A DNA stretch of 64,000 nucleotides. It comes from Jeotgalibacillus malaysiensis. GTDB lineage: Bacteria > Bacillota > Bacilli > Bacillales > Jeotgalibacillaceae. The notes under the pieces are model-generated. The model ran no database searches. It saw nothing but the letters and a program-made list of their open reading frames with translations, and had not been told where the DNA came from. This document shows, in pieces, positions 30,349 through 63,351 of the stretch. Where the stretch lies: positions 445,501 to 509,500 of the forward strand of contig CP009416.1 of NCBI GenBank assembly GCA_000818095.1. The letters run 5' to 3'. A program made the position numbers and the translations under genes. Every line of letters begins with the position of its first letter. Within the stretch, counting starts at the first letter, position 1.

Positions 30349-30480
30349 TTTTTGGGGAGGGGGATGGTGGTTCGGTGATTAGAGACGTTTGTTCGGAGAA
30401 AAATAGTTGAGGTTCGGCGTTCAGCAGGGCATGTTCGAAGGTAATTCGGGTATGTTCGTGGAATAGTGTAATTTGACCTG
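30349..30480 (-). repeat. 21-bp periodic array, copy 1 (degenerate, minus strand)
   Basis: Read on the minus strand, the leader (30464-30480, AGGTCAAATTACACTA) is followed by motif positions at 30454, 30433, 30412, 30391, 30370 and 30349, exactly 21 bp apart. Only the fourth (GTTCGGAGAA) is close to consensus; the first is GTTCGTGGAA and the sixth is unrecognisable. The phase is kept while the sequence has decayed. Confidence 0.7.
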
Positions 30481-30503
30481 CTTTTAAAGTTATTTTTTGC
30501 TCC

Positions 30504-30517
30504 CCGTCCCGGGACGG
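30504..30517. repeat. GC-rich perfect palindrome
   Basis: CCGTCCC and GGGACGG form a 14-bp perfect palindrome, 52 bases before the APH-type gene, next to the leader of array copy 1. It is much more GC-rich than its surroundings and may be an operator. Confidence 0.45.
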
Positions 30518-30568
30518 AGGCAGCCTGAAAAGAGATCCTGTACACTTTGACTAAAAATGGAGGCCGCT

Positions 30569-31585
30569 ATGGAACAGTCAGTTGAACGTTTATTTTCGCA
30601 GCAATTATTATCAGAAGCAGCATCACGTTTCTCAGCAGATGCCAATCAGGCTAAAAACCTGAACGGCTTTGAGAACTATGTATATGAAGTGTACAAAAAC
30701 GGGAATCCGTATGTACTGAGGTTAACGCATTCATCTCATCGAACGAAATTACAGGTTGAAAGTGAACTCATTTGGATTAATGACCTTCACAGCAGAGGTA
30801 TCAATGTTTCACTGGTGAATCAGTCAGTGAACGGAAATCTGGTGGAAGCAATTGAAGCAGAGGATACATACTTTTATGCCTGTCTCTTTAACAAAGCACC
30901 CGGTGCATCTGTAAAATTGGATGATCCGTTCTTTGACGTTCCTCTATTTGAAAAGTGGGGGGAGATCACAGGTGAGCTACATTCAGCGGCAAAGGATTTT
31001 GATACGTCAAAAATTAATCGCCCACACTGGTATGAAGATGACCTGATTGAACTTGAAAGGTATTTGCCTGAACAAGACCGGAAAATCATTGGAGGAAATC
31101 GTGAGCTGGTCGGTCAGATCAAGGAGCTGCCTAATCACAAAAATGTATACGGATTAATCCACTCTGATATTCATATGGGTAATTTCTTTGTACATAAAGG
31201 AGAGATTCACCTGTTTGATTTTGATGATACGATGTATTTCCACTACATCAGTGATATTGCGATCCCGCTTTATTATATGACGCTGTGGAAAAACAGGGAG
31301 CTGCCGCTTGAAGAGCGATCCAGACAGGGCGAAGTATTTCTAAAAGCATTTTTAACTGGATACGCGAGAAAAAGCGTAATTGAGCAGGAGTGGATTGAAA
31401 GGCTGCCAATGTTTTTGAAAATGAGAGACTATACGCTGTATGGCGTTTTTCATAAGCAAGTGGACCTTGAAAAGGCAAGTGAGCGTGAGCGGGCGCTTGT
31501 GAAAAGTTTGCGGGAACGTCTCATCAGCGGGGAGCCGATTGTTGAGCTGGATTATGCAGAAATTTTTAACGGCGTAAATCGGTAA
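30569..31585 (+). CDS. Aminoglycoside phosphotransferase-family kinase
   Basis: A 338-residue protein with the APH/choline-kinase fold. The Brenner motif GLIHSDIHMGNFFV carries the catalytic Asp and the metal-binding Asn. HLFDFDDTMYFHYISDIAIPL carries the D-F-D metal motif. The N-terminal lobe has the VLRLTHSS-type Lys/nucleotide region. Members phosphorylate antibiotics, sugars, homoserine or choline-like substrates; this one cannot be placed. ATG 30569 is preferred because GGAGG lies 5 bases upstream. A 14-bp GC-rich palindrome (30504-30517) lies in its leader. Confidence 0.8.
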   Translation: MEQSVERLFSQQLLSEAASRFSADANQAKNLNGFENYVYEVYKNGNPYVLRLTHSSHRTKLQVESELIWINDLHSRGINVSLVNQSVNGNLVEAIEAEDTYFYACLFNKAPGASVKLDDPFFDVPLFEKWGEITGELHSAAKDFDTSKINRPHWYEDDLIELERYLPEQDRKIIGGNRELVGQIKELPNHKNVYGLIHSDIHMGNFFVHKGEIHLFDFDDTMYFHYISDIAIPLYYMTLWKNRELPLEERSRQGEVFLKAFLTGYARKSVIEQEWIERLPMFLKMRDYTLYGVFHKQVDLEKASERERALVKSLRERLISGEPIVELDYAEIFNGVNR

Positions 31586-31666
31586 GTCTGACTGCTGATA
31601 GAATATTTCTCCTCAATAAGGGTATGGTTACTAACAGAATATACATATTGACAGGAGGAGAAGCTG

Positions 31667-32179
31667 ATGAACAGAGGCGTTGTGACTTCATTATCAGCAA
31701 TCGGGATCGCCCAGGCGCTGAAGATTGTGACACATAAGAAAGTGACAGGAAAGTGGGAATTAAAGCCGCTCGTACAGACTGGCGGAATGCCAAGTTCTCA
31801 CTCAGCGGGGGTTGCTTCGCTGGCAGCATATGTAGCTGCTAATAGAGGAACCAGACATATTGAAACGGCACTTGCGATCGTATTTGGAACGATTGTTATG
31901 TATGATGCACAAGGTGTTCGCCGTCATACGGGTGAAATTGCAAGACTTGTAAACGACCTCGAAGATCACTTTGAGATTATTTCTGACGATTATCCAAGCC
32001 TTCAGTTTGAAAAACGTGATAAAGAGCTGAAGGAATTGCTTGGTCATCAGCCTCTTGAAGTGCTGGCCGGAGGAATCTTTGGAATTGTTTACGGAATTGC
32101 ATCTGCCAAGCTAGAAGACCGTAAGCTTAGAAAAGAAGAGCCAAAACCAATGATTGCACGTGATTTTAAAAACGAATAA
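31667..32179 (+). CDS. yuiD: Divergent PAP2 family membrane protein YuiD
   Basis: A 170-residue membrane protein of the DUF212/divergent PAP2 family, like B. subtilis YuiD. It has the phosphatase-like motif GGMPSSHSAGVASLAAY and the second half YDAQGVRRHTGEIARL with a conserved R-x-x-x-G-x-x-A. Acid phosphatase activity toward a lipid phosphate is plausible but unproven. AGGAGGAG precedes the ATG. A terminator follows. Confidence 0.88.
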   Translation: MNRGVVTSLSAIGIAQALKIVTHKKVTGKWELKPLVQTGGMPSSHSAGVASLAAYVAANRGTRHIETALAIVFGTIVMYDAQGVRRHTGEIARLVNDLEDHFEIISDDYPSLQFEKRDKELKELLGHQPLEVLAGGIFGIVYGIASAKLEDRKLRKEEPKPMIARDFKNE

Positions 32180-32187
32180 TATGATTT

Positions 32188-32236
32188 CCCGCAGCGGTAT
32201 AAGTTGTAAAACAGCATATTCGCTGCGGGTTTTGTA
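32188..32236 (+). terminator. Long-loop terminator after yuiD
   Basis: CCCGCAGCG at 32188-32196 pairs with CGCTGCGGG at 32221-32229, followed by TTTTG and more T. Confidence 0.65.
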
Positions 32237-32315
32237 TTTTTACAAAAAAATTTTCAAAAACCTGCTTGCACTGAGAACGATTTTCATTTACTATCAGATG
32301 TGGGAAGGCAAAAGG

Positions 32316-32765
32316 ATGGATATTATGGATGAAAAACAATATTTCCTCAACGATTCCCTGGGCTATAAGCTGTTTCATGCTTCAAGACTGATGAACAGCC
32401 GGTTGAACCGTAATTTTAAGGAACATGGTTTTAACCTTACATATGAACAGTGGCAGATTCTTACGCGCTTATATGAACGCGATGGCCAGACACAAAATGA
32501 TCTTGCAGCGCAAAATGAGCGGGATCAGGCCAGTGTATCTAGGCTGATCGATAATCTGATCAAGCGGGGATATGTGAAAAGAGAGGTTCACCCATCAGAT
32601 CGCAGGGTCAACAAGATCATATTAACTGCAGAAGCAAAGCGTGATCAAAAGGAACTGGAAACCTGTGCTCAAAAAACCATTGTCCAGGCATCAGAAGGAC
32701 TTTCTGAAAAAGAGCTTTCAAAGATTTTATCAGTGCTTGATAAAATCAGATCGAATTTAGCATGA
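32316..32765 (+). CDS. MarR family transcription regulator
   Basis: A 149-residue winged-helix dimer. The recognition helix region QNDLAAQNERDQASVSRLIDNLIKRGYVKREVHPSDRRVNKIILT has the MarR wing signature D-x-R. N- and C-terminal helices form the dimer interface. No Cys suggests thiol sensing. ATG 32316 has GGAAGG 7 bases upstream; ATG 32325 with AAAGG is equally possible. Two palindromic operators lie just after the gene, upstream of the siderophore transporter operon, which it probably controls. Confidence 0.85.
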   Translation: MDIMDEKQYFLNDSLGYKLFHASRLMNSRLNRNFKEHGFNLTYEQWQILTRLYERDGQTQNDLAAQNERDQASVSRLIDNLIKRGYVKREVHPSDRRVNKIILTAEAKRDQKELETCAQKTIVQASEGLSEKELSKILSVLDKIRSNLA

Positions 32766-32782
32766 GCTTTTTTGCGTCAAAC

Positions 32783-32832
32783 ACTTGTTGGAACAAGTAT
32801 TAATTTTTACAGCATTAGTTGTCTAAACAAGT
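32783..32832 (+). promoter_or_regulatory. Two MarR-type operators ACTTGTT-N2-AACAAGT
   Basis: ACTTGTT-GG-AACAAGT at 32783-32798 is perfect. AGTTGTC-TA-AACAAGT at 32817-32832 differs at two positions. Their centres are 34 bp apart. They lie between the MarR gene and yclN. Confidence 0.65.
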
Positions 32833-32840
32833 ATTTGACG

Positions 32841-32864
32841 GAGAGAAAACTCTCTCTTTTTTTT
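32841..32864 (+). terminator. Small hairpin terminator upstream of yclN
   Basis: GAGAG-AAAA-CTCTC is followed by a run of T. It may end the MarR transcript or act as an attenuator before yclN. Confidence 0.55.
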
Positions 32865-32873
32865 AGAATACAG

Positions 32874-32888
32874 TGAGAATAATTATCA
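32874..32888 (+). promoter_or_regulatory. Fur box of the siderophore transporter operon
   Basis: TGAGAAT-A-ATTATCA matches the 7-1-7 Fur consensus TGATAAT-N-ATTATCA at 13 of 14 positions, 31 bases before the yclN start. Confidence 0.8.
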
Positions 32889-32919
32889 TTTTCACTTTAA
32901 GGAAAGTCGGGTTCCAATT

Positions 32920-33873
32920 ATGAAAAAACGATATCTGGCCAGTGCACTCGTTCTTTTCGCTGCAGGATCTCTATTTGTAGGGGTGTCATCACTTTCCCCA
33001 ATGGATTTATTTCATTTGTCTGAGGAACAGCTGCATGTCTTATGGAACAGCCGGCTGCCGCGATTGATGAGTATATTGCTTGCGGGAGCGGGGATGAGTG
33101 TGTGCGGGCTGATTATGCAGCAGCTCTCACGTAACAAGTTTGTATCACCAACGACTGCAGGGACAATGGACTCTGCAAGACTCGGTGTGCTGGTGTCGCT
33201 CATGCTATTTACCAGCGCATCACCACTGTTAAAAATGAGTATCGCATTCCTTTTTGCTTTACTCGGCACGTTTATATTTATGAAAATTTTAGACCGTATT
33301 AAGTTCAAGGATGTCATTTTCGTACCGCTCGTCGGTTTGATGTTCGGGAATATTATCAGTTCGATCACAACCTTTTTTGCTTATGAGCGGGATCTCATTC
33401 AGAATATGTCAGCCTGGATGCAGGGCGACTTTTCGCTGATCGTGACCGGCCGTTATGAACTGATGTTTTTAAGTATTCCATTCATGATTGCCGCCTACAT
33501 ATTTGCCAATAAGTTCACGATTGCAGGGATGGGTGAGGACTTTGCAGTCAGCCTCGGGTTGAAATACAGAACCGTTGTGAATACAGGACTTGTACTTGTT
33601 GCCTTTGTTACTTCATCTGTTTTGCTGACAGTTGGCATGATTCCTTTTCTTGGCTTGATTGTACCGAATATCGTGAGCCTTTATCAGGGAGATAACCTGA
33701 AAAAGAACCTGCCGCACACAGCGATGCTTGGTGCATTATTTGTACTTATCTGTGACATTCTCGGCCGCATTGTGATTTACCCGTATGAGCTGCCAATCAA
33801 CTTAACTGTTGGCGTACTTGGAAGCGGAATCTTTGCGTGGCTGCTGATCAGGAGGCGATCACGTGAAGCATAA
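32920..33873 (+). CDS. yclN: Petrobactin-type siderophore ABC transporter permease YclN
   Basis: A 317-residue FecCD/BtuC-type permease with about nine hydrophobic helices, closely following B. subtilis YclN (petrobactin import). Shared stretches include SRLPRLMSILLAGAGMSVCGLIMQQLSRNKFVSPTTAGTMD at residues 43-83 and a coupling segment near GMIPFLGLIVPNIV. It pairs with YclO to form the membrane channel. AAGGAAAG precedes the ATG. It is first of four genes under a Fur box and probable MarR operators; the next gene overlaps it by 11 bases. Confidence 0.92.
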   Translation: MKKRYLASALVLFAAGSLFVGVSSLSPMDLFHLSEEQLHVLWNSRLPRLMSILLAGAGMSVCGLIMQQLSRNKFVSPTTAGTMDSARLGVLVSLMLFTSASPLLKMSIAFLFALLGTFIFMKILDRIKFKDVIFVPLVGLMFGNIISSITTFFAYERDLIQNMSAWMQGDFSLIVTGRYELMFLSIPFMIAAYIFANKFTIAGMGEDFAVSLGLKYRTVVNTGLVLVAFVTSSVLLTVGMIPFLGLIVPNIVSLYQGDNLKKNLPHTAMLGALFVLICDILGRIVIYPYELPINLTVGVLGSGIFAWLLIRRRSREA

Positions 33874-34807
33874 GCTGATTTTAACCATACTTGCCGTTCT
33901 GGCTGTCACGATGATTGCGATCTATATGACGATCGCATCCGGCGGCAACTGGGATTATATTCTCCCGCGCCGGGGCATGAAGGTGCTTGCTATGGTCATT
34001 ACTGCAAGCACGATCGGGATTTCCACGGTCATCTTTCAGACGATGACTAACAATAGAATTCTTACTCCGAGCATTATGGGAATGGATTCACTTTATATGC
34101 TGCTTCAGACAGCACTCATTTTCATCGTTGGCTCAGGGAGTGCGCTGATTATGAACCGCAATCTCAATTTTGTCGTATCAGTTTTACTCATGATGGTGTT
34201 TGCCATGCTGCTGTATAAGCTCCTGTTCAAAAAAGAAGGATCAAATCTGTTTTTCCTTTTGCTGCTTGGTCTGATTTTTGGAACGTTCTTTTCAAGCATC
34301 TCAACCTTCATGCAGGTGCTGATTGATCCAAATGAGTTTCTCATGATTCAGGACCGGATGTTTGCAAGCTTTAACAATGTCAGTGCTGATCTCGTGTGGG
34401 TGGCACTCGGCTGTATAGCAGTGACTGTGATCTGGATATGGAAGGACCTCAAATATCTCGATGTACTTTCACTCGGGCGTGATCAGGCACTGAATCTGGG
34501 TGTGGATTATGAGCGCGTTGTCAGAAAACTGTTTTTGGTTACAGCAGTATTCGTTGCGATCTCAACGGCGCTGGTCGGTCCGATTCTATTCCTCGGACTG
34601 CTTGTCGCAAATGTCACGTATGAAGTCATGAAAACCTATCGTCACGCTTATCTGATGGCTGCATCTGCTTTAATCAGCATTATCGCAGTAATCGGCGGCC
34701 AGCTGCTTGTGGAAAGAGTGTTCAGCTTTACCACAACACTCAGCGTCATCGTGAACTTCATCGGTGGTGTGTACTTTTTATACTTACTATTAAGGGAGCG
34801 ATCATAA
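33863..34807 (+). CDS. yclO: Siderophore ABC transporter permease YclO
   Basis: A 314-residue FecCD-type permease, the second membrane subunit. It contains FQTMTNNRILTPSIMGMDSLYMLLQ, equivalent to the QxxxRNxLAxPxxLG region of the family, and a coupling helix near LVGPILFLGLLVANVTYE. It starts with GTG 11 bases inside yclN, with AGGAGG upstream. The ATP-binding gene begins directly after its stop. Like its partner it lies in the cytoplasmic membrane and moves iron-siderophore inward. Confidence 0.92.
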   Translation: MKHKLILTILAVLAVTMIAIYMTIASGGNWDYILPRRGMKVLAMVITASTIGISTVIFQTMTNNRILTPSIMGMDSLYMLLQTALIFIVGSGSALIMNRNLNFVVSVLLMMVFAMLLYKLLFKKEGSNLFFLLLLGLIFGTFFSSISTFMQVLIDPNEFLMIQDRMFASFNNVSADLVWVALGCIAVTVIWIWKDLKYLDVLSLGRDQALNLGVDYERVVRKLFLVTAVFVAISTALVGPILFLGLLVANVTYEVMKTYRHAYLMAASALISIIAVIGGQLLVERVFSFTTTLSVIVNFIGGVYFLYLLLRERS

Positions 34808-35566
34808 ATGGTTTCAGCCAGTAACGTAGTGAAATTTTTCGGTAAAAAGAAAGTCGTACAGGACGTTTCAATTCAGGTCGAAAAAGGAAAAATCACTTCT
34901 CTGATCGGTCCAAACGGTGCGGGTAAAAGTACACTGCTATCGATCGTCAGCAGGTTGATGACGTCTGACGGCGGCGAAGTGAAAATCGATGAGCTCGACG
35001 TCGCTAAATGCCGCGGCAGTGAGCTTGCAAAAAAGGTATCAATCTTAAAACAGGCCAACCATATGACACTGAAATTAACCGTCAGGGAGCTTGTCTCATT
35101 TGGACGATTTCCCTACTCACAGGGCAAGCTGACAGCTGAAGATAAACGCTTTGTGGACGAAGCAATTGCATATATGCAGCTTGAAGACATGCAGCATTCT
35201 TACTTAGATGAACTGAGTGGCGGACAAAAGCAGCGTGCGTTTCTCGCAATGGTCATCGCACAGGATACAGAATATATCCTGCTTGACGAACCACTCAACA
35301 ACCTTGATATGAAGCATGCGGTTCAAATGATGAAGGTGCTGCGCCGACTTGTTGATGAGCTTGGTAAAACGGTAGTCATCGTGATTCACGACATCAATTT
35401 TGCCTCCTGCTATTCAGACAATATCATTGCGATGAAAAATGGCCGCGTCGTGAGAGAAGGCACCGTCAATGACATCATCAAACCGTGCGTACTGAAAGAA
35501 ATATACGATATGGATATTAATATTGAAGATGTAAATGAAAATAAAATCTGCGTGTATTACGCTTAA
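34808..35566 (+). CDS. yclP: Siderophore ABC transporter ATP-binding protein YclP
   Basis: A 252-residue ABC ATPase. Walker A is GPNGAGKST (residues 36-44), the signature is [10 protein letters not shown], Walker B is YILLDEPLNNLD, and the H-loop is in VIVIHDINFAS. It drives the YclN/YclO channel. It begins immediately after the yclO stop with GGGAGCG upstream, and the binding-protein gene follows after 15 bases. Confidence 0.93.
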   Translation: MVSASNVVKFFGKKKVVQDVSIQVEKGKITSLIGPNGAGKSTLLSIVSRLMTSDGGEVKIDELDVAKCRGSELAKKVSILKQANHMTLKLTVRELVSFGRFPYSQGKLTAEDKRFVDEAIAYMQLEDMQHSYLDELSGGQKQRAFLAMVIAQDTEYILLDEPLNNLDMKHAVQMMKVLRRLVDELGKTVVIVIHDINFASCYSDNIIAMKNGRVVREGTVNDIIKPCVLKEIYDMDINIEDVNENKICVYYA

Positions 35567-35581
35567 AAGGACGGATCACAT

Positions 35582-36520
35582 ATGAAAAAACTACTATTTC
35601 CAGTCATCGCTGGTGCCCTTGTATTAGGTGCATGCGGATCAGAAGAAAATGCAGAAACAACAACCGGATCAGCCGCTGAAAAAGAGGAAATGACCATCTC
35701 ACATCTGTTAGGTGACACAACGGTTGAAAAAAGTCCGGAATCAGTCGTAGTATTCGACTTCGGCACGCTCGATACACTGGATGCACTTGGTGTTGAAGTG
35801 GCAGGTGTCCCTCAGACCAACATTCCATCTTACCTTTCGAAATATGAGGGAGAAGACTATGAAAACGCAGGCGGACTGAAAGAACCTGACTTTGAAGCGA
35901 TCAATGCAATGGATCCAGACCTGATTATCATCTCAGGTCGTCAGGCAGATCTCTATGAAGAATTCGAAGCGATCGCCCCAACCATTTATATGGGTGTAGA
36001 CACTGAAAACTACATGGAATCATTCGAAGAAAACGTCAATACACTGGCAGCGCTTTTTGAAAAAGAAGAAGCTGCTGCTGAAAAGCTGGATGAGATTAAC
36101 GTATCCATTGATGAACTAAATGAGCAGGTCACTTCTCAGGATCTTGAAGCGTTAGTGACACTTGCAAATGACGGGAAAATCAGTGCATACGGTGCAGGCT
36201 CACGCTTTGGCATCATTCATGACGTATTCGGTTTTACCCCTGCAGACGAAACAATCGAAGTATCCACGCACGGACAAAGTATTTCCTATGAATATATTGT
36301 CGAAGAGGATCCGCAGTATATCTTTGTTGTCGACCGCGGCGCAGCAGTTGACGGTGAATCTTCAGCAAAGCAGGTCGTTGAAAATGAATTCATTGAAGGC
36401 ACACAAGCCTACGAAAATGGCAACATCATCTACCTTGACCCGGACTACTGGTACCTGTCAGGCGGCGGATTAGTATCCGTTCAGGAAATGGTAAACGAAA
36501 TTCAGTCAGGTATTGAATAA
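35582..36520 (+). CDS. yclQ: Siderophore-binding lipoprotein YclQ
   Basis: A 312-residue class III substrate-binding protein anchored by lipid. The lipobox is LVLGAC (Cys18), followed by an acidic linker. The two lobes are joined by one long helix (about 165-185). The start of the mature domain, TVEKSPESVVVFDFGTLDTLDALG, matches FepB/YclQ-type proteins. B. subtilis YclQ binds petrobactin and its photoproduct; the same ligand is likely but not shown. AAAGGACGG precedes the ATG, and the gene ends the operon at a terminator. Confidence 0.92.
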   Translation: MKKLLFPVIAGALVLGACGSEENAETTTGSAAEKEEMTISHLLGDTTVEKSPESVVVFDFGTLDTLDALGVEVAGVPQTNIPSYLSKYEGEDYENAGGLKEPDFEAINAMDPDLIIISGRQADLYEEFEAIAPTIYMGVDTENYMESFEENVNTLAALFEKEEAAAEKLDEINVSIDELNEQVTSQDLEALVTLANDGKISAYGAGSRFGIIHDVFGFTPADETIEVSTHGQSISYEYIVEEDPQYIFVVDRGAAVDGESSAKQVVENEFIEGTQAYENGNIIYLDPDYWYLSGGGLVSVQEMVNEIQSGIE

Positions 36521-36529
36521 ATCAGTCAG

Positions 36530-36555
36530 CTCCTCTGCAGTGCAGGGGAGTTTTA
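36530..36555 (+). terminator. Terminator of the yclNOPQ operon
   Basis: GCTCCTCTGCA pairs with TGCAGGGGAGT (one G-T pair), followed by TTTAT. Confidence 0.75.
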
Positions 36556-36633
36556 TCGTGGGTTCAAAAAAGATTCCACCTGAGATCTCTGTTATACTGA
36601 ACAAAACTTTCAACGCTAAAGGAGTGTCTACAT

Positions 36634-37467
36634 ATGAAAACAGCATTAGTCACAGGCGCCAACTCAGGCATGGGACTCACAACAACGATTGAACTTGTAA
36701 AGCAGGGATATCACGTCATCATGATGTGCCGCAACACGCGCCGCGGAAAAGTGGCCTGGATCTCGGCGAAAGAGCAAACACGATCAGAGGAACTGACATT
36801 AATGCAATGTGATCTTGGCAATCTCGGAAGTATCAGAAGTTTTGCAGAAGAGTTCAAAAAGAAATTTTCGAAACTGGATGTGCTTGTCAATAACGCAGGG
36901 GTCGTTTCTTTAAAACGCAGACTGACAGACGACGGCTTTGAATCGCACCTGGGTGTTAACCACCTTGGTCATTTCCTGCTGACAAACCTGTTACTGGACG
37001 AACTAAAGGCCGCGGAGCAGGGCAGGGTTGTAACGATCAGCTCCGGCGCGCATAAATGGGGTAAAATGGATTTTGATGACCCTCATTTTGAAAAAGGCTA
37101 TAACGTCGCAAAAGCTTACGGCCGATCAAAGCTTGCGAATGTTCTGTTTACAAAAGCACTGGCAAAGCGACTGGAAGGCACTGCTGTCACGTCCAATGCG
37201 GTGCATCCGGGTGCGGTATCAACGAATATTGGGATCGATCGGAAAACGGAGTTCGGGAAAGGTGTTCATAAAGTATTGAAGCCGTTTTTCCAGACAGCTG
37301 AAGAAGGTGCTGCGACAGCAGTATATCTGGCTACTGCACCGGAACTTTCAGATGTGAGTGGCAAATACTTTTATCAGATGAAAGAGATTGATGTGTCAGA
37401 GGACGCGTCCAATGAATGGCTGGCTGAGGAGTTATGGGGCTGGAGTGAGGAACGCGTGGGATTGTAA
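36634..37467 (+). CDS. SDR family oxidoreductase (retinol dehydrogenase-like)
   Basis: A 277-residue short-chain dehydrogenase/reductase. The cofactor motif is TGANSGMG (residues 7-14), NNAG is at about 89-92, the catalytic Ser is in TISSGAH, and Y-G-R-S-K gives the catalytic Tyr and Lys. The long C-terminus and HLGHFLLTNLLLDELK match the retinol/protochlorophyllide-type SDRs, which are often NADP-dependent. Substrate unknown. AAAGGAG lies upstream; it is transcribed alone to a terminator. Confidence 0.85.
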   Translation: MKTALVTGANSGMGLTTTIELVKQGYHVIMMCRNTRRGKVAWISAKEQTRSEELTLMQCDLGNLGSIRSFAEEFKKKFSKLDVLVNNAGVVSLKRRLTDDGFESHLGVNHLGHFLLTNLLLDELKAAEQGRVVTISSGAHKWGKMDFDDPHFEKGYNVAKAYGRSKLANVLFTKALAKRLEGTAVTSNAVHPGAVSTNIGIDRKTEFGKGVHKVLKPFFQTAEEGAATAVYLATAPELSDVSGKYFYQMKEIDVSEDASNEWLAEELWGWSEERVGL

Positions 37468-37481
37468 AATAGTTTGAGTGA

Positions 37482-37538: not shown

Positions 37539-37669
37539 TAGGTCAAATTACACTTTTCTAAGAACTATCACAGTTTTTCTTTGAACTTCGCTATTTTTCT
37601 ACGAACATGACATGCTATTCTCCGAAACGGACACATTTTTCTCCGAACATCACACATTGATCTACGAAC
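37539..37669 (+). repeat. 21-bp periodic array, copy 2, upstream of the RpiR regulator
   Basis: The leader TAGGTCAAATTACACTT starts at 37539. Six motif copies start at 37556, 37577, 37597, 37618, 37639 and 37660, with steps 21, 20, 21, 21 and 21. Units are TTCTAAGAAC, TTCTTTGAAC, TTCTACGAAC, TTCTCCGAAA, TTCTCCGAAC and ATCTACGAAC. This is the only copy with one 20-bp step. Confidence 0.85.
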
Positions 37670-41076: not shown

Positions 41077-41208
41077 TAGGTCAAATTACACTATTCTACG
41101 AACGAAGATGTTTTTTCTAAGAACACGATCTACTTTTCTAAGAACCTTACACCTATTTCTAAGAACAAAGGGCACTTTTCTCCGAACCATGAATGTTATT
41201 CTACGAAC
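41077..41208 (+). repeat. 21-bp periodic array, copy 3, upstream of the response regulator
   Basis: The leader TAGGTCAAATTACACTA (41077-41093) is followed by six units at 41094, 41115, 41136, 41157, 41178 and 41199, each step exactly 21 bp. Units are TTCTACGAAC, TTCTAAGAAC (three times), TTCTCCGAAC and TTCTACGAAC. The 11-bp spacers are unrelated to each other. Total length is 132 bp. Confidence 0.9.
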
Positions 41209-54143: not shown

Positions 54144-54150
54144 AAAATAC

Positions 54151-56174: not shown

Positions 56175-56245
56175 AAAAACACTCCTCTTTCTTATTTTTG
56201 GCATAAATAAAGAAGGGACCCTGAAAACAGATCCCTTTCATTCAA

Positions 56246-58234
56246 TTAGTCGAACTGACTCGTGATAAATTCCGGTGCTTCAGACTCATCAATACCAAGA
56301 TAGCTATAGCCGTCATTGATCCGGTAGAAAATCACATAATCGCCGTAGCTGTTGGAATCGCCAAGATCAAATAGCTCTTCAATCTGCTCCTGATCTGTGA
56401 TTGTAATCGTCGGCACATTCAGTTCATCCGGTGAAAGCCTGTTTTCATATACAACGGTATCCACTTCCCGGAAAAATTCGTCACCTTCAGATTTTGCAAC
56501 CGTTACTTCTTCAAGGTTCTCCGGAAGAAATAGGGCATCACCGTAGCCGTTCTCATTCATCCACTCAATCGTATTTTCATGATCTTTTGTAATGCCTGCA
56601 TGGTAATCATACGGCAGATTCATCGAGAACTGGATTTCGCCGGCAGACTTTGGGCTCCAATCAAGTGCTAATTCCTCAGAAGGAAGGACCTCAAGATCAG
56701 CCTTCATCGCAGCGATCAATTCCTGCATCTCTTCTTCATCAGCAATTCTGATTGGCTCACCGTTCTGATTAGAATAGAACATAATATAATTCAGCTGGTC
56801 ACTTGCCGAAGCTAAATACACAGGGTCATATGCTTCTTTAAATGCCTGAGTATTTCTTAATTCAAGCGTGACTTCTTTTAAGAAATCATGGTTGACATCA
56901 TACTCTCTTGATAAAGTACTGCCATCTTCCAGCGTATAGTTAATGGACACTGTACTCCAGTCACCTGCAAGCCTGTTATAAGTGTGATCAATGAGCTGAT
57001 CGTGAATCGCAGTCACCATTTCAACTGCTTCAGGATTGGTTAACGAAGGCGTTTCGGTTCCTTCTTCGTAATATGAGAAGTTGTTCCGTGAATTCGGACT
57101 TGTAATCTCAACCGATTCTACTGCACCGGCATCAGGCACCTTATTTTCATAAAAGCCTGCTACAAGATTCACTGGAATAATCAGCAGCGTAATCACAACT
57201 GCGTAGACAACAAAACCTTTCCATGGCCACGTCAGACGCAGCGTTTTCTGAAGGATCATCTGTAAAATGGTGTAGGCAATAAATGCACCAAGCACGTAAC
57301 CGACAATCGTCCAAATAAAGCTGCCCTGCTGGATTTCTGTAAAGTAAAAGCCTGAGATCAGCATCACAAACAGTGTCAGACTATACAGGAAAACATAGCG
57401 GAAAAACGAAAATACAATCGTCTGATCAGTCGCTTCTGAAGGGCGCTTCGCATAAGCAAAATATGAGAAAGCGACAAGTGCAGCAGCAATCAGCGTATAG
57501 ACCAGATATTCAAGCAGGCTGAACGGCGTCTGCGTTAATTCAATCAGTCTGCCAAAGAAAATCCCGTTTGTCAGCAGCGTTTCCGTATAAGTTGTCAGCG
57601 CCAGACCCTGTACGTAGTACTGCAGATTCGTCAGTGCCAAAAGAATAATCAGCGCCGGTACAACAATCACTGTATAAGTCAGCGCCCCGTGAAGCAGCGC
57701 ATTCCCAACAAAAATACCAATGGCAATCGTCAGTATAAACATAAATAGCATAATCAGATAAGACAGCCCGATCCATTTAAAAATATCAGGGATCGTATAG
57801 AACTGATCCATCAGGAAAGGGTAAAGTACAGCCGTCAGAATCCCCGTAATCACAAGTGGCACAAAGAGTGTGATCGCACCTGTAATATACACATTTGTCA
57901 GGATTGTTCCTCTTTTAAAAGGAAGGCTGTGAAAGAAATCCGTTGCTGATTTATTCGTCATAAAGTTCAGCAGGATGATCCCGATCAGTACTGGAAATGA
58001 GCAGAATGCCATCAGTTGAAAAGGAATAGAGAATTCAAACAGCGGATTTAAAATATCATTATAATTCGTGTATCCTCCGAAAAACTGATCATTTCTGAAT
58101 GTCATTTCACGGATAAACATACTGAGCGGCAGCATAATCACAAGCGCAAGTGATAAAAATACGCCGATCCACGTAACAGCTCGCAATTGCTGTCTGAACA
58201 GCCCCTTATTCCACAATAAGATTCCGGATCTCAT
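56246..58234 (-). CDS. Large ABC transporter permease, YtrC/YtrD-like
   Basis: A 662-residue membrane protein. Residues 1-360 hold about nine hydrophobic segments, including NKSATDFFHSLPFKRGTILTNVYITGAI typical of YtrC/D-type exporters. Residues about 365-662 form a large extracytoplasmic domain (DUF6449-like) with YDPVYLASASDQLNYIMFYS. In B. subtilis two separate permeases, YtrC and YtrD, occupy this place. The start at 58234 follows GGGAGGTG and overlaps the upstream ATPase gene by 29 bases. Confidence 0.8.
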   Translation of the reverse strand: MRSGILLWNKGLFRQQLRAVTWIGVFLSLALVIMLPLSMFIREMTFRNDQFFGGYTNYNDILNPLFEFSIPFQLMAFCSFPVLIGIILLNFMTNKSATDFFHSLPFKRGTILTNVYITGAITLFVPLVITGILTAVLYPFLMDQFYTIPDIFKWIGLSYLIMLFMFILTIAIGIFVGNALLHGALTYTVIVVPALIILLALTNLQYYVQGLALTTYTETLLTNGIFFGRLIELTQTPFSLLEYLVYTLIAAALVAFSYFAYAKRPSEATDQTIVFSFFRYVFLYSLTLFVMLISGFYFTEIQQGSFIWTIVGYVLGAFIAYTILQMILQKTLRLTWPWKGFVVYAVVITLLIIPVNLVAGFYENKVPDAGAVESVEITSPNSRNNFSYYEEGTETPSLTNPEAVEMVTAIHDQLIDHTYNRLAGDWSTVSINYTLEDGSTLSREYDVNHDFLKEVTLELRNTQAFKEAYDPVYLASASDQLNYIMFYSNQNGEPIRIADEEEMQELIAAMKADLEVLPSEELALDWSPKSAGEIQFSMNLPYDYHAGITKDHENTIEWMNENGYGDALFLPENLEEVTVAKSEGDEFFREVDTVVYENRLSPDELNVPTITITDQEQIEELFDLGDSNSYGDYVIFYRINDGYSYLGIDESEAPEFITSQFD

Positions 58235-59111
58235 AGCCAACACCTCCCAACTCATAAATAAAGATTTCTTCAAGCGTCAACGGTAGCAAATCAAATATCG
58301 CCGGATTGAAGCTTTCAACATAAGGAAGAATTTCTTCCTCACGTCCTTTAACAATAATCAGCAGCACACTGCCGCGTTTCTCGTAATGCAGTACATCTAA
58401 GCCGCTCAGGAATGCCTCTTTTTCAGGCAGCTTCTTAAATGCGATCTGAAGCTTATGGATATCTGTCTTTAATTCGTCCAAATCCCGCTCAAATAATAGT
58501 CCGCCGTTATGCATGATCCCGACGTAATCACAGAAATCCTCCATCTCACGCAGATTATGCGAAGACACAATCAGCGTCAGTCCACGGTCCGCCACATCCT
58601 GCAAAATCGCATTCTTCATCTGCTGACGCACAACCGGATCGAGTCCATCAAACGGCTCATCTAAAATCAGCACATCCGGCATCGCAGAGAGGGTAAGAAT
58701 AAATGAAGCCTGGCGCTGCATTCCTTTAGACATTTTCGTCAGCTTCTTATCAGGATTCATCCTGAAATGCTTCGTCAGCTGCTGAAACCGTTTTTCGTTC
58801 CATCTCGCATACACTTCTTTATAAAACCCCGCCATATCATTCAGCGAAGTCTGATGCAAAAAGTGCGGCTGGTCCGGGATAAACAGCACATGCTGCTTCG
58901 TTTCAGGTGTTTCAAACACAGGATTGTCAGCGATTTTCACTTCTCCACTGTCATATCTATAAATGCCGGCAAGTATTTTAAGGAGGGTCGTTTTACCGGC
59001 GCCGTTTGATCCGAGCAGTCCGTAGATGGATCCCTTTTTCACATGGAGTGTGAGATTCTCAACAGCCTGCAGATCATCAAAACGCTTATTTACTGCGGTT
59101 GCCTGAATCAT
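58206..59111 (-). CDS. ytrB: ABC transporter ATP-binding protein, YtrB-like
   Basis: A 301-residue ATPase. Walker A is GSNGAGKTT (residues 36-44), a degenerate signature reads MSKGMQRQASFILTL, Walker B is VLILDEPFDGLDPV, and the H-loop is IVSSHNLRE. A C-terminal 80-residue extension (HKLQIAFKKLPEKEAFLSGL) is typical of YtrB and bacitracin-type exporters. AGGGAGGGTGACAA lies before the ATG. It overlaps the GntR gene by 4 bases and the permease by 29. Confidence 0.88.
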   Translation of the reverse strand: MIQATAVNKRFDDLQAVENLTLHVKKGSIYGLLGSNGAGKTTLLKILAGIYRYDSGEVKIADNPVFETPETKQHVLFIPDQPHFLHQTSLNDMAGFYKEVYARWNEKRFQQLTKHFRMNPDKKLTKMSKGMQRQASFILTLSAMPDVLILDEPFDGLDPVVRQQMKNAILQDVADRGLTLIVSSHNLREMEDFCDYVGIMHNGGLLFERDLDELKTDIHKLQIAFKKLPEKEAFLSGLDVLHYEKRGSVLLIIVKGREEEILPYVESFNPAIFDLLPLTLEEIFIYELGGVGYEIRNLIVE

Positions 59112-59491
59112 TTGTCACCCTCCCTTTCCGCCACTTCAATTTTTTGAATCAAATTGATGAGATCATCCTTCGATCCGCCCAAAAATAAAAACTCACTCAC
59201 AATTTTTTCTAAGTCCTGTCTCAGCATCTCCAATCTCTCCTCATTCCCATCATTCTGTAACGGTGCCACAAAACTGCCTTTTCCAGGAACGGAATAAATA
59301 AATCCCTCGCGCTCAAGCTCACGGTAGGCTTTCTGTATCGTATTCGGATTAATCGTCAATTCCTGTGCCAGACTCCTGACAGACGGCAACTGCTCATCCT
59401 GCTGCAGCACATCCCGGATCATCAGCGTCTTCAGCTGATCCATCAACTGCTCATAAATCGGCACCCGGCTGCGCGTATCCAACGTAAACAT
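59108..59491 (-). CDS. ytrA: GntR/YtrA family transcription regulator
   Basis: A 127-residue repressor. The GntR winged helix spans residues 5-75 (PIYEQLMDQLKTLMIRD, then LPSVRSLAQELTINPNTIQKAYRELEREGFIYSVPGKGSFV). A short C-terminal YtrA-type helical dimerisation part of about 45 residues follows. It is first in the operon and presumably binds the inverted repeat at its own promoter. Relatives respond to wall-acting antibiotics. ATG 59491 follows GGAGGAGGG; GTG 59497 is possible. Confidence 0.9.
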   Translation of the reverse strand: MFTLDTRSRVPIYEQLMDQLKTLMIRDVLQQDEQLPSVRSLAQELTINPNTIQKAYRELEREGFIYSVPGKGSFVAPLQNDGNEERLEMLRQDLEKIVSEFLFLGGSKDDLINLIQKIEVAEREGDK

Positions 59492-59515
59492 CCGCACCCT
59501 CCTCCAAATATTAGT

Positions 59516-59562
59516 GTATTACCTGTACTACTTATTGTAATACGGTTGATACGGTTGGTCAA
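59516..59562 (-). promoter_or_regulatory. Promoter and GntR operator of the ytr operon
   Basis: On the minus strand, TTGACC (59557-59562), 17 bp, TACAAT (59534-59539). The inverted repeat GTATTAC-N14-GTAATAC (59516-59543) covers the -10 element, a typical YtrA-family operator position. Confidence 0.75.
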
Positions 59563-59624
59563 TACTATTTTTTGTAATTATTTTTTGCCCTTGGTGCAGT
59601 TGGGAAACTGGGGGTGGTGTGGGG

Positions 59625-59756
59625 GTTCGTAGAATAATTGCGGTTGTTCGTAGAAAAACAGGTATGGTCCTTAGAACAGACAATGGTGTTCTTAGAAAAA
59701 CACGAGTGGTTCGTAGAAAAAACAATCATGTTCTTAGAAAAGTGTAATAAGACCTA
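59625..59756 (-). repeat. 21-bp periodic array, copy 4, upstream of the GntR regulator
   Basis: Read on the minus strand, the leader TAGGTCTTATTACACTT (59740-59756) precedes six units. On the plus strand these occupy starts 59730, 59709, 59688, 59667, 59646 and 59625, all 21 bp apart. Units read TTCTAAGAAC or TTCTACGAAC, with one TTCTAAGGAC. Total length is 132 bp. Confidence 0.9.
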
Positions 59757-59781
59757 TGATGAAAATAAAAAAACACGCTGA

Positions 59782-60762
59782 CTAATCAGCGCGATATGGC
59801 TTTCTCAAACAATATCTCCTTTTACTTGTTTTATATTTAGCGAGCAAGTTTGCTCTTTGCAGCAAAGCCCACATAGTTGCTGGACTGTTTACATTTAGAA
59901 ATACTCTAGCTTCCCGATTTGAAATAGTAGGGTTAATAAATGTTAAATAAACAAACAGTGAATCCAGATAGCTTTCATCATTTTGCAAGCCGCATAATTC
60001 GCAGCGAAAGCGTCGGGCAATCCATTTAACAGTCAAACTCATACATGCGTTACACCAGACGCCAGATTCAAGTATATCGGTTGCGATATTATGTTTATTT
60101 AACACATTATAAATTTTTTCATTAACTGTAGATGATGCAAGGCCATTTGAGATTTTTCTAAGTGCACTTAGGTCATATTGTTCTTTATCATTAGCTGCTA
60201 AAATTTCTCTAAGCTTCATCGTGAAACGATCTGCCCTGAAAATGTTTTTGGGGAGAAGGTTAGACGAGCCAACTGCTTCGAGATGGACGCCAGGGTGGGT
60301 AAAGGGAATCAGAGAATATATTGGAAGGTCAGTATTTATTTGAGTAAAAAGATGCTTGAGACCTGCGCGGTGACGTTCGACCTGGAGAGAGGGGTGAGTC
60401 GTGGTGAAAATGGATCCGTCTGTTTCAAGACGATACATTTGCTCATTTTCAAGATCGAGTTTCATATGGCCTTTATAATGCTTTGTCTCAATTGTCAGGG
60501 CAAAAGCCGGAGTAAGAATCAGGTGATCAATTTGAATCGTCTCACCTTCATAAGGGAGTAGCAAGTTATGACCAATCAGGAATTTGTCAGAAGCAAAAGG
60601 ACTGAGCAACTGGTCAATTCTCTGTTCTCCAAACTCACCGGCTCTCATTAAATCAGCGTCTTTTAAAATTTCATGCTTTGCAGGAAGATGATCTGGGATG
60701 TGGCGTGCTAACAGTTCGTACGCATGGGCACGTAGAGAAGGTTTTCTTGTGTGGAAAATCAC
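59782..60762 (-). CDS. NERD domain protein with C-terminal zinc finger
   Basis: A 326-residue protein. The NERD (nuclease-related) domain spans about 38-160: GEFGEQRIDQLLSPF, then LLLPYEGETIQIDHLILTPAFALTIETKHYKGHMKLD, with the D and E-x-K of the nuclease-like core. The C-terminal part has C-x2-C pairs (WCNACMSL and RCELCG) for zinc binding. NERD proteins are common in Bacillota and presumed DNA-acting, but the role is unproven. It starts with GTG after AAAGGAGG. A periodic array lies on each side, leaders facing the gene. Confidence 0.82.
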   Translation of the reverse strand: MIFHTRKPSLRAHAYELLARHIPDHLPAKHEILKDADLMRAGEFGEQRIDQLLSPFASDKFLIGHNLLLPYEGETIQIDHLILTPAFALTIETKHYKGHMKLDLENEQMYRLETDGSIFTTTHPSLQVERHRAGLKHLFTQINTDLPIYSLIPFTHPGVHLEAVGSSNLLPKNIFRADRFTMKLREILAANDKEQYDLSALRKISNGLASSTVNEKIYNVLNKHNIATDILESGVWCNACMSLTVKWIARRFRCELCGLQNDESYLDSLFVYLTFINPTISNREARVFLNVNSPATMWALLQRANLLAKYKTSKRRYCLRKPYRAD

Positions 60763-60861
60763 TAGTGTATTCCTCCTTTTTGAGTGGGTTGAGAAGATTA
60801 TATAACTTTTATAGGAAGAGTGAACATAATATTTTGTTGATTTGTTAACGAGATGATCGGC

Positions 60862-60993
60862 TAGGTCTATTTACACTATTCTACGAACAAGGGTGGTTTT
60901 TCTACGAACCGGGCTGTATTTTCTAAGAACATGACGGCCTGTTCTAAGAACACCAATCACTTTTCTAAGAATAAGACAGTTTTTTCTACGAAC
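60862..60993 (+). repeat. 21-bp periodic array, copy 5, upstream of the sucrose hydrolase gene
   Basis: The leader TAGGTCTATTTACACTA (60862-60878) precedes units at 60879, 60900, 60921, 60942, 60963 and 60984, all steps 21 bp. Units are TTCTACGAAC or TTCTAAGAAC, with one TTCTAAGAAT. Total length is 132 bp. Confidence 0.9.
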
Positions 60994-61070
60994 ACCCATA
61001 ACCCCCAATTTCCCAACGGCATCCCACTAAGTGCTAAAATAAACCCAACAACCCGAAAGCAGGTGACGTG

Positions 61071-62531
61071 ATGGAGAAGGAGATTCAAATTGTAGAGGCG
61101 TCGATTCAGGAGAAGGAACAGGAGGCGCAGGCGCATCATTGGTATCCGCGATTTCATGTGGCGCCGCGGGCATACTGGATGAATGACCCGAATGGTTTTT
61201 CTTATTTCAATGGGAAGTATCATTTGTTTTATCAGCATCACCCGTTTTCGCCGGAGTGGGGGCCGATGCATTGGGGCCATGTGGTGAGCCGGGATCTGGT
61301 GAACTGGGAGCACCTGCCTGTGGCGCTCGCTCCGAGTCTGCCGGATGATGCGGATGGATGTTTTTCGGGCAGCGCGATTGAGGTGGATGGAAAGCTGGTT
61401 GCAATGTACACCGGAAATGTATGGACAGGCCCGGATCACGATACGGATCTGAAGCAGGTGCAGATGATTGCGGAAAGCAATGATGGCATTCATTTTACGA
61501 AATGGGAGATTCCCGTGATCAGTGAGGCGCCTGAGGGCGATATTCATCCGTTTCATTTCAGGGATCCGAAGGTGTGGAAACGTGAGGATACATATTACTG
61601 TGTGCTTGGTTCGAGAACGAAGGATCATACAGGGCATGTGCTACTTTACAAATCTGATGATCTTAAAAACTGGGATTTTGTAGCCGTTTCAGCTAAAAAA
61701 GAAGAGAATGGCGGATTTATGTGGGAGTGTCCGGACTTCTTTCATTTAGGTGAGAAGGACGTGCTGGTGATGTCGCCGCAGGGCGTAAAGCCTGAAGGAA
61801 ACAAGTTTCATAATCTCCACCAGGCAGTTTATGTGCTTGGTGAGCTGAATTATGAGTCAGGTCAGTTCACACATAGAGATTTTCATATGCTCGATGCAGG
61901 GTTTGACTTTTATGCACCGCAGACACTTGAAGATCCGGAGGGCAGACGTGTGATGATCGGCTGGATGGATATGTGGGAGAGCGAGATGCCGACGCAAGAG
62001 CATGGATTTTGCGGCGCGATGACGATTCCACGCGTGCTCGTGCCTGCCGGAGACCGCCTGCTCATTCAGCCGCTGCCTGAGCTTGCTGAGCTGAGAAAAG
62101 AAGAGATATACGTTGAAAATGAACCCATTTCAGCTAAACGAACGTTTGATTCAATCAGCGGCACATGTCTTGAAATGAAGCTGGAAGTAGATGTGAAGAG
62201 TGCGGATGCTTTTCGTGTAAACTTCCGTTGCGGTAATGGCGAGAAAACGGTTCTCAGCTGGTCGAGAAAAGAATCTGCAGTCACGCTCGACCGTACTGTA
62301 TCCGGTGCGGGTGTCAGCGGGATGAGAACAGTGGAAGTGAAGGAACAGGATCGATTAACACTGCACTTTTTCCTTGATCAATCTTCTGCAGAGATCTTTA
62401 TTAATCATGGTGAAGCTGTGATGACAGCGCGGATTTATCCGGGAGAGGCGTCTGACGGAATTGAGTTTAAGGCTGAGGGTGAAGCTATTATTGAGCGGCT
62501 TTGGAAGTGGGATTTAAATTCAGCTTTTTAA
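61071..62531 (+). CDS. Sucrose-6-phosphate hydrolase (GH32)
   Basis: A 486-residue cytoplasmic beta-fructosidase. The three GH32 motifs are present: WMNDPNG with nucleophile Asp39, FRDPKVW with the transition-state Asp, and WECPDFF with the acid/base Glu. A C-terminal beta-sandwich follows (about 340-480). It cleaves sucrose-6-phosphate or sucrose. No sucrose PTS gene or SacT/ScrR regulator is adjacent, so uptake must be encoded elsewhere. ATG 61071 has AGGTG 5 bases upstream. A flavin reductase gene follows 18 bases after its stop. Confidence 0.9.
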   Translation: MEKEIQIVEASIQEKEQEAQAHHWYPRFHVAPRAYWMNDPNGFSYFNGKYHLFYQHHPFSPEWGPMHWGHVVSRDLVNWEHLPVALAPSLPDDADGCFSGSAIEVDGKLVAMYTGNVWTGPDHDTDLKQVQMIAESNDGIHFTKWEIPVISEAPEGDIHPFHFRDPKVWKREDTYYCVLGSRTKDHTGHVLLYKSDDLKNWDFVAVSAKKEENGGFMWECPDFFHLGEKDVLVMSPQGVKPEGNKFHNLHQAVYVLGELNYESGQFTHRDFHMLDAGFDFYAPQTLEDPEGRRVMIGWMDMWESEMPTQEHGFCGAMTIPRVLVPAGDRLLIQPLPELAELRKEEIYVENEPISAKRTFDSISGTCLEMKLEVDVKSADAFRVNFRCGNGEKTVLSWSRKESAVTLDRTVSGAGVSGMRTVEVKEQDRLTLHFFLDQSSAEIFINHGEAVMTARIYPGEASDGIEFKAEGEAIIERLWKWDLNSAF

Positions 62532-62549
62532 TCTAAAGGAGGAATTTAA

Positions 62550-63161
62550 TTGTTATCTATTAACCCCGAAAATCAATCAGAACGAGATAACTACAAGCTG
62601 CTGACAGGAGGGATCATTCCCCGTCCGATCGCATTTGTTACTACTGAATCCGAGGCAGGCGTTTTGAATGCAGCCCCATTTAGTTATTTTAATATTGTAT
62701 CTGCTGACCCGCCGATGATCTCGGTGTCCGTTCAGCGTAAAGCAGGCGAGCAGAAGGATACTGCTCGTAACGCGGAATTTAAAAAAGAGTTTGTCGTTCA
62801 CATTGTGGATGAATCGAATGTTGAAAAGGTAAATCAGACTTCCGCTAATTTGCCTTTTGACGAGAGCGAGGTTGAACTGACCGGTCTGACGCCTGTTGAG
62901 AGTGAAGTGGTAAGCGTACCAGGCTTGGCAGAATCCAGATTCAGAATGGAATGTGTGCTTGAGCAGAACATCCAGCTTGGCGGGCATGAAGGGAAGTCTT
63001 CTGCTGACTTGCTGATCGGGCGGATTGTACGGTTTCATATTGATGAGGCGATTTATGAGAAGGGGCGTATTCACGCGGACGAGCTGAAGGCTGTGAGCAG
63101 GCTGGCTGGAAGTAATTATGCGAAGCTGGGTGAGATGTTTTCGCTGGAGAGGCCGAAATAA
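62550..63161 (+). CDS. Flavin reductase-like FMN-binding protein
   Basis: A 203-residue split-barrel flavoprotein of the flavin_reduct (PF01613) family. The core TGGIIPRPIAFVTTESEAGVLNAAPFSYFNIVSADPPMISVSVQRKAGEQKDTARN shows the FMN-phosphate loop. It may reduce flavin or act on a small molecule; the substrate is not clear. The start is TTG 62550, set by AAAGGAGG 7 bases upstream. It closely follows the sucrose hydrolase gene without a terminator, yet the functions do not obviously connect. Confidence 0.83.
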   Translation: MLSINPENQSERDNYKLLTGGIIPRPIAFVTTESEAGVLNAAPFSYFNIVSADPPMISVSVQRKAGEQKDTARNAEFKKEFVVHIVDESNVEKVNQTSANLPFDESEVELTGLTPVESEVVSVPGLAESRFRMECVLEQNIQLGGHEGKSSADLLIGRIVRFHIDEAIYEKGRIHADELKAVSRLAGSNYAKLGEMFSLERPK

Positions 63162-63219
63162 TAATATTGATGATGACCGGGGAGCGGGGTGCTTTCCGGT
63201 TTTCTATGTGGTTAAGGGG

Positions 63220-63351
63220 TAGGTCTTTTTACACTATTCTACGAACCGAGCTGTTTTTTCTAAGAAGAACCTCGATTTTTCTTAGAACATCACTCTCTGT
63301 TCTAAGAACCTTATCAATTTTTCTACGAACGAACACACTAATTCTAAGAAC
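63220..63351 (+). repeat. 21-bp periodic array, copy 6, upstream of the XRE regulator
   Basis: The leader TAGGTCTTTTTACACTA (63220-63236) precedes units at 63237, 63258, 63279, 63300, 63321 and 63342, all steps 21 bp. Units are TTCTACGAAC (twice), TTCTAAGAAC (twice), TTCTAAGAAG and TTCTTAGAAC. Total length is 132 bp. Confidence 0.9.

Follow-up and report, generated by a model that had tools for sequence, protein, structure and literature searches.

Six phased sites behind a cap: a near-constant intergenic array with changing motifs in Jeotgalibacillus

Repeats with constant lengths of 20-21 nt and of 52 nt have been described in Bacillus by Subirana and Messeguer (2021, PMC8161180), whose main text remarks on the two-helix-turn length, proposes a protein polymerising on DNA or a small RNA, and gives their function as unknown. 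Here we describe an element of related design in Jeotgalibacillus malaysiensis, starting from a stretch of 64,000 nucleotides (the window; GenBank assembly GCA_000818095.1, contig CP009416.1, here C1, positions 445501-509500) in which six arrays of a 10-bp motif repeat at 21-bp steps behind a conserved leader. As far as the text consulted describes the Bacillus repeats, both share a length of 20-21 nt (here 546 of 555 steps are 21 bp and 6 are 20 bp), a short motif conserved within otherwise variable sequence, the co-occurrence of several families in one genome (here unit types A, B and C), a mostly non-coding location and an uneven occurrence among species. Whereas the Bacillus families are described there as species-specific, the present element is found in several species at corresponding loci (56 of 60 arrays), with a unit vocabulary that differs at a locus, and goes beyond those repeats in its near-fixed six units, a cap, a register to terminators, an origin-side bias, shared loci and a motif switch at constant architecture. 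The main text of PMC8161180 mentions neither Jeotgalibacillus nor terminator, origin of replication, intergenic or downstream, and our literature search returned no other description of this array design than these related repeats; the fixed count, the cap unit, the terminator register, the origin bias and the motif switching do not appear in the literature consulted. The first-pass annotation of the window, which knew of no described family of this kind, had thus missed a relative whose proposed protein polymerising on DNA resembles its own suggestion.

The REP/BIME sequences of enterobacteria, palindromic hairpins tied to a REP transposase, are likewise extragenic, scattered along the genome at gene 3' ends, and serve as binding sites for DNA proteins; the arrays share their dispersed placement at gene 3' ends, but we found no hairpin within the array and saw no inverted repeat. 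The TAACTGA direct repeats of Beggiatoaceae form abundant intergenic sets of two to six copies with an unknown role, as far as described in PMC4679880, and have a 7-bp unit instead of a 21-bp unit composed of motif and free spacer. Closer in the way they may work, and in that respect only, are the site sets of Noc in B. subtilis (about 70 sites) and SlmA in E. coli (24-52 sites), which the consulted text of PMC4726725 gives as underrepresented near Ter and proposed as division timers: they too comprise tens of terminus-depleted sites (here at least 61), yet each is a short palindrome (14 bp for Noc), in contrast to six direct sites in phase. Tentatively, and with rather more doubt than conviction, we read the present element as a DNA array on one face of which a protein would assemble, in gaps shielded from transcription, so as to mark the origin-proximal chromosome; the strict 21-bp phase, the free spacers, the polar cap, the inward terminators and the gap at the terminus would all fit such an assembly and an action on the scale of the chromosome. 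In Jeotgalibacillus, the constant-length 21-nt repeats that were reported from Bacillus with no function attached gain a fixed anatomy and a genomic address, the arrays might turn out to represent a new system of chromosome organisation or insulation, and the question why two helix turns are kept and which protein binds becomes experimentally approachable, with sister species that have or lack arrays, and one locus in three vocabularies, as a natural experiment.

Within the window, the motif TTCTMMGAAC occurs exactly 24 times against 0.62 expected, a number reached by 0 of 100 shuffles, and all 24 occurrences lie inside the six arrays, which were found at or very near the positions first given for them (30349, 37539, 41077, 59625, 60862 and 63220). 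As these exact motifs account for 24 of about 35 units, the original statement that every unit follows TTCT(A/C)(A/C)GAAC holds for the larger part of the units and not for all. Six units in 132 bp were confirmed for the four arrays at 41077, 59625, 60862 and 63220, whose cores start 23, 44, 65, 86, 107 and 128 from the leader and deviate only as one GGAC, one GAAT and one GAAG, while the 30349 array falls short of this description with five clear units at about 30370-30480 (cores at 23, 44, 65, 86 and 107) that are mostly degenerate. The one departure from 21-bp steps that had been noted is a single 20-bp step in the 37539 array. In the leader, GGTC starts 21 bp ahead of the first GAAC and is therefore in phase with the units; what had been taken as a sequence separate from the motifs is best read as a cap unit of modified sequence that keeps the phase. 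Unit types A, B and C all occur within the J. malaysiensis genome and share the GAAC core. Tandem Repeats Finder missed the window arrays at 30349 and 63220; of the four that it did report, with 65-81% matches, it covered one almost entirely (37550-37669) and the other three partially. As a separate observation, the arrays at C1:483039 and C1:3159919 both have one 20-bp step, in each case from unit 2 to unit 3, with all other steps at 21 bp.

This anatomy extends across four species. Among 113 arrays, comprising 54 of the 61 arrays of J. malaysiensis, 20 of genome G008, 19 of G006 (one further array being dropped for its low score) and 20 of G011 (J. alimentarius), the chain count gave six units in 100, seven in 5 and another number in 8, and the 555 steps measured 21 bp in 546 cases, 20 bp in 6, 22 bp in 2 and 19 bp in 1; both counts lean to regular copies, as the step finder accepted 19-23 bp only and favoured 21, and as the relatives' arrays were the best-scoring ones by a profile trained on those of J. 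malaysiensis. The Bacillus repeats were defined by a minimum of four repeats as detected by SATFIND; counted by chain and not by SATFIND, 111 of 113 arrays have four or more units. The scan of the genome and its relatives proposed in the first-pass annotation thus found count and phase nearly fixed, where freely varying unit number and spacing would have spoken against the element. Slippage repeats were rejected, as the spacers differ while count and phase hardly do, and the earlier idea of a protein on one DNA face every two turns is well supported, short of proof, with the binding itself something that we infer.

To place the arrays on the genome, consisting of C1 (3,516,439 bp) and C2 (603,070 bp), a profile was built from 51 aligned J. 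malaysiensis arrays, using sequence only, and the best 150 of 707 candidates were scored, which makes all counts lower bounds. At least 77 matches resulted, at least 61 of them sense arrays and the other 16 antisense shadows of the same arrays, so that the family is not confined to the six copies first presumed. Among the 77 matches listed, none falls on C2 (0.6 Mb). C1 starts with dnaA, dnaN, recF and gyrB, as read from translations, and sorting the 61 listed arrays by distance from dnaA into eight equal bins gave 18, 10, 20, 5, 5, 3, 0 and 0, with 8 of the 61 in the terminus half (binomial p ~1.5e-9). A search of the whole genome with the leader pattern at up to one mismatch returned 26 matches, all on C1 and none at 0.94-2.35 Mb, while at two mismatches this pattern comes near the control level. 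The arrays occupy the origin-side two-thirds of the chromosome, thin outward and are missing around the terminus.

A 200-kb terminus sample (C1:1.60-1.80 Mb) contained no array, although 94% of it aligns with G008 C2:200-400 kb (81% identity) and it holds 97 terminators, or 4.85 per 10 kb compared with 5.94 in the window and 4.96 in L159+L160, both of them array-bearing. Being collinear and terminator-rich, this sample leaves neither lost synteny nor a lack of terminators to explain the gap there, and on its basis, that of one sample, we rejected the origin bias as a by-product of either. It holds one GAAC chain of three cores, running up to an apparent gene end, and nine sites where some tetramer returns with a 21-bp period and fills 4 or more of 6 slots, compared with 0-2 such sites for other step lengths. 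Long open reading frames (ORFs) contain eight of these nine, random stretches being covered by such ORFs in 161 of 200 cases, and the ninth is T-rich; we read these recurrences as protein heptads and chance. Among the matches listed for G008, none lies in C1 beyond 633.7 kb or in the first 964.6 kb of C2, a gap of about 1.36 Mb in total, and 55 sense matches fall outside it.

By simple ORF calling around 51 J. malaysiensis arrays, both neighbouring genes run co-directionally on the array strand in 23 cases and on the opposite strand in 8, while 18 arrays have convergent and 2 have divergent neighbours; 49 of the 51 face at least one gene 3' end, and in 41 the array strand is that of the upstream gene. 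Inward-pointing intrinsic terminators within 160 bp were found upstream of 39 of 54 arrays and downstream of 13, compared with 14 and 5 outward-pointing ones. Over the four species an upstream inward terminator accompanies 85 of 113 arrays, and its U-tract ends 12-15 bp before the leader in 36 of the 85, orthologous loci being counted more than once; in J. malaysiensis alone this holds for 17 of 39 (p ~5e-9, binomial against a uniform distribution over 0-40 bp, with 35 distances within 0-40). Beyond the peak at 12-17 bp, 7 of the 39 distances in this genome seem to gather at 32-36 bp, an offset of roughly one 21-bp unit.

It is on this arrangement that a transcription bumper could be founded, in which the bound array would stop RNA polymerase leaking through the terminator and insulate the neighbouring units on either side, the 12-15 bp register allowing the bound complex to hold polymerase on the U-tract. 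The terminators pointing at the array, the peak of the register and the position in gaps between co-directional (23 + 8) and convergent (18) genes would all be expected of such a device. A general termination aid, however, should not be missing from a terminus sample that is similarly terminator-rich, and 15 of 54 arrays have no upstream terminator that we detected. Nor do the arrays substitute for Rho, which is encoded in all 12 genomes of the genus, for which reason the replacement of a lost Rho was rejected as well. We regard the bumper as unlikely, if still deserving of serious attention.

Whether the array acts as DNA or as RNA was addressed by pairing and folding analyses. Across 51 arrays with 60-bp flanks, the top pairing run fell in the upstream terminator hairpin region (-49/-16, score 9.2) and the best inside the array reached 8.2, and no run surpassed the highest value obtained in 20 row permutations (maxima 6.9-10.0). 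The mean fold z-score of the array alone was -0.35 sense and -0.53 antisense (17 of the 51 arrays folded), and no Rfam family was matched in window positions 30000-64000. The absence of significant covariation, the weak folding and the lack of an Rfam match favour an action as DNA, and a structured RNA was not supported by covariation. A looser version would have a read-through transcript carry six sites, as a hexamer-binding or Rho-loading RNA, and serve as terminator aid or sponge. It could draw on the 3' flank, whose first 20 nt beyond the final core have much C (0.46-0.49) and little G (0.08-0.09) in each of three gene contexts (49 of 51 arrays), on the array strand following the upstream gene in 41 of 51 cases, and on the small-RNA option raised for such repeats in the text of PMC8161180. 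Flexible RNA, on the other hand, gives no reason for exact 21-nt spacing, many arrays are located after terminators, and the pairing and folding results count against it in the same way, so that we hold this explanation to be very improbable.

Coding heptads are unlikely: inspected by eye, the motif TTCTAAGAAC places TAA in one frame, and in a different frame many B units contain TGA or TAA. Some arrays are crossed by small ORFs of 75-125 aa, and the array at C1:673700 overlaps one of 336 aa. CRISPR arrays consist of near-identical repeats of about 23-47 bp next to cas genes. With a 10-bp motif, an 11-bp spacer and at least 60 loci, the present arrays do not correspond to this class, although no search for cas genes was made.

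The arrays are inherited in place. For 56 of 60 arrays from three relatives the flanks match those of a J. malaysiensis array, and the remaining 4 have no flank match in the J. malaysiensis loci compared. Between orthologous pairs in fixed register, the agreement amounts to 1243 of 1344 positions in GAAC (92%), 749 of 952 in the leader, 1240 of 2016 in the hexamer and 1662 of 3080 in the spacer (54%), while their flanks align at a median of 84%; spacers therefore decay while the phase stays. Non-orthologous arrays of J. malaysiensis agree at 94% in GAAC, 66% in the leader, 51% in the hexamer and 37% in the spacer. The spacers, first described as unrelated, are indeed free, yet they are T-rich before the motif, and the higher agreement between orthologues than between non-orthologues (54% against 37%) shows that they are not wholly unrelated.

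What changes at a locus is the motif. Between the NERD and GntR genes, the J. malaysiensis array is of type A (TTCTMMGAAC), those of G006 and G011 are of type B (AACGYCGAAC-like) and that of G007 is of type C (AATYTCMTGAAC-like), with six units at 21 bp in all four, one G011 core reading GAAT, and with a promoter-like stretch before GntR that is nearly unchanged. Arrays mixing A and B units exist, for example at C1:3002570 and in its G011 orthologue, and the two types seem interchangeable within one array. In G004 and G009, inspection by eye of the NERD-GntR locus yielded just a short CTCACRAAC pattern at 21 bp; arrays of these two genomes seem to use another hexamer before GAAC (such as WATCTTRC or TTTTGY), often with a GAAG- or GAAA-like first core.

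Such rewriting bears on the proposal that the arrays are sites at which DNA is wrapped by a DNA-bending machine of general use, gyrase or HU for instance. Positive supercoils gather at gene 3' ends, where the arrays lie, and a length of about 130 bp with a 21-bp period would suit a wrapped DNA. The specific GAAC core and cap, the restriction to a clade, the vocabularies differing between species at one locus and a sampled terminus that lacks arrays despite a similar terminator density all argue the other way, and among the explanations considered we give this one the least credence, marginally below that of the RNA element.

At the locus of an M20 dipeptidase, the seven array-bearing genomes are those whose protein is at least 90% identical to that of J. 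malaysiensis, others reaching 78-84% and G001 giving no match at threshold. The array is present there in J. malaysiensis, G007 and G011, a leader-like remnant alone in G006, and the outgroups G003, G005 and G010 have terminator-like hairpins with no array in the 430 bp compared. Loci of this kind could be explained by frozen relics of a terminator-targeting insertion element, the six sites being those of its transposase or regulator and the often identical U-tract distance reflecting its insertion specificity. This one outgroup-empty locus is too diverged to show a target-site duplication. With 56 of 60 relatives' arrays in the same place there is no sign of recent movement, the aligned 132 bp contain no terminal inverted repeat by eye, and no match was obtained in viral contigs (one exact-pattern scan) or in phages and plasmids (blastn with one array each). 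A phase that stays strict while spacers decay is likewise not what a relic would lead one to expect, and we consider this origin improbable.

Within the genus, a search scoring the best 150 candidates per genome found profile matches in 8 of 12 genomes, seven with at least 40-77 (shadows included) and one with 2, and no match among these candidates in each of the other four. The J. alimentarius YKJ-13 contig NZ_JXRQ01000015.1 (472,126 bp) carries the same element. Across the order, 30 of 299 genomes match at 1e-5, 22 of them outside the genus, where the best E-value is 1.7e-10 compared with 1.6e-25 in J. malaysiensis and most matches begin late in the leader or after it; with 11 candidates scored per genome and stricter filters, weak matches were lost in this search. 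GAAC as a universal core of Bacillales was not supported, since a reversed-pattern control matches many times in some genera (89 in G015, 174 in G046). A wider contig scan produced at least 117 stretches, of which 11 were inspected: J. alimentarius has the element, 21-bp arrays of another kind occur in B. litorisediminis and Oceanobacillus, and the remaining stretches look like simple, coding or other repeats.

Returning to the reading in which a protein marks the origin-proximal chromosome, each element would be a double-stranded DNA binding array composed of the cap (GGTC and a conserved spacer) and six GAAC-centred sites two helix turns apart, along which a putative protein would assemble over about 130 bp on a single DNA face. 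The arrays lie in the gaps that separate transcription units, in many cases behind an intrinsic terminator. The front edge of RNA polymerase lies about 12-18 bp beyond the RNA end, and a U-tract 12-15 bp before the cap would approximate the stopping point of the front edge of a terminating polymerase. Some 60 complexes would then mark the origin-proximal two-thirds but leave the terminus free, much like the sites of the unrelated Noc and SlmA, the likeliest role being in chromosome organisation or timing, be it segregation, nucleoid occlusion or the anchoring of domains. We infer oligomer size and chromosomal role from this arrangement. Possible, if more doubtful, is the further step to a chromosome-addressing system of cap and six phased sites in terminator-shielded gaps, with a motif that changes from one species to another under constant count, phase and address, which would amount to a rapidly evolving site code read by a novel polymerising protein.

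Several findings weigh against the marking of the chromosome by such a protein. No binder was identified, and the ParB-family count is two in all 12 genus genomes, so that no extra ParB paralogue tracks the arrays and an additional ParB/Noc paralogue was rejected as the binder. J. malaysiensis has its own Noc: in 0.55 Mb of its sequence, the Noc consensus, which we take to be ATTTCCCGGGAAAT, a 14-bp palindrome, matched twice with one mismatch (0.09 expected), both times apart from the arrays, and once with two mismatches, and the arrays do not contain this consensus; nucleoid occlusion is thus already served, and the arrays are not Noc sites. The terminus gap of G008 offers no independent test, since its C2:964593 corresponds to position 2,354,197 of J. 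malaysiensis and the gap covers the same zone, and the same applies to orthologous arrays. The conservation of GAAC is a family property, inflated by array selection, as orthologues keep the core no better (92%) than unrelated arrays of J. malaysiensis (94%). Five of the 12 genus genomes have no match or two weak ones only, which implies that the task of the arrays is dispensable there or done otherwise. Nor does the reading account for the strand asymmetry of the flanks, which are G-rich before the array (0.34-0.45 over the last 12 bp ahead of the leader) and C-rich and G-poor after it.

As for the individual arrays of the window, the first (30370..30480, minus strand) has a leader beginning CAGGTC with one mismatch and five clear units of mixed A and B types, and has an orthologue in J. 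alimentarius (pair L266). The array at 37539..37669 (plus strand) consists of the leader and six units with one GAAA core; the U-tract of an inward terminator ends 26 bp upstream, and a second inward terminator lies downstream. At 41077..41208 (plus strand), the leader is followed by six exact TTCTMMGAAC units at 21-bp steps. The array at 59625..59756 (minus strand, leader and six units) lies between the 3' end of the NERD-domain gene and the GntR gene, and the intrinsic terminator of the NERD gene, which points inward, has its T-run at 59767..59773 (minus strand), ending 10 bp before the array leader. On the plus strand at 60862..60993 stands one of the two arrays in divergent context (NERD gene on the minus strand, GH32 gene on the plus strand), again with leader and six units, and the last array (63220..63351, plus strand, leader and six units) follows a flavin-reductase gene, with the T-run of an inward intrinsic terminator at 63200..63203 (plus strand) and the end of the U-tract 16 bp upstream. 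PADLOC, run on two window proteins, returned nothing of use.

A parS-like 16-mer occurs at window position 16486, with two mismatches to the parS consensus, and may be due to chance. By eye, neighbouring arrays 2-9 kb apart look alike (C1 749458/754286, 3405389/3413871 and 3468123/3469803), which suggests local duplication or gene conversion between arrays. Other genera of Bacillales carry 21-bp arrays in other vocabularies (GAACGGGAGTAAANNNNNNNN; GAACTCAGCACCNNTTTTTCC; GAACTYGNNNNATTTTGGCAC), at L205-L210 (G057), L218-L220 (G019), L211-L217 (G021), L221 (G037) and L222 (G040). These comprise 4 to 16 units, some of them near-identical and some overlapping ORFs, and in G040 (L222) a four-unit GAAC array recurs four times (at 2493, 2679, 2868 and 3057), 186-189 bp apart, forming a higher-order repeat.

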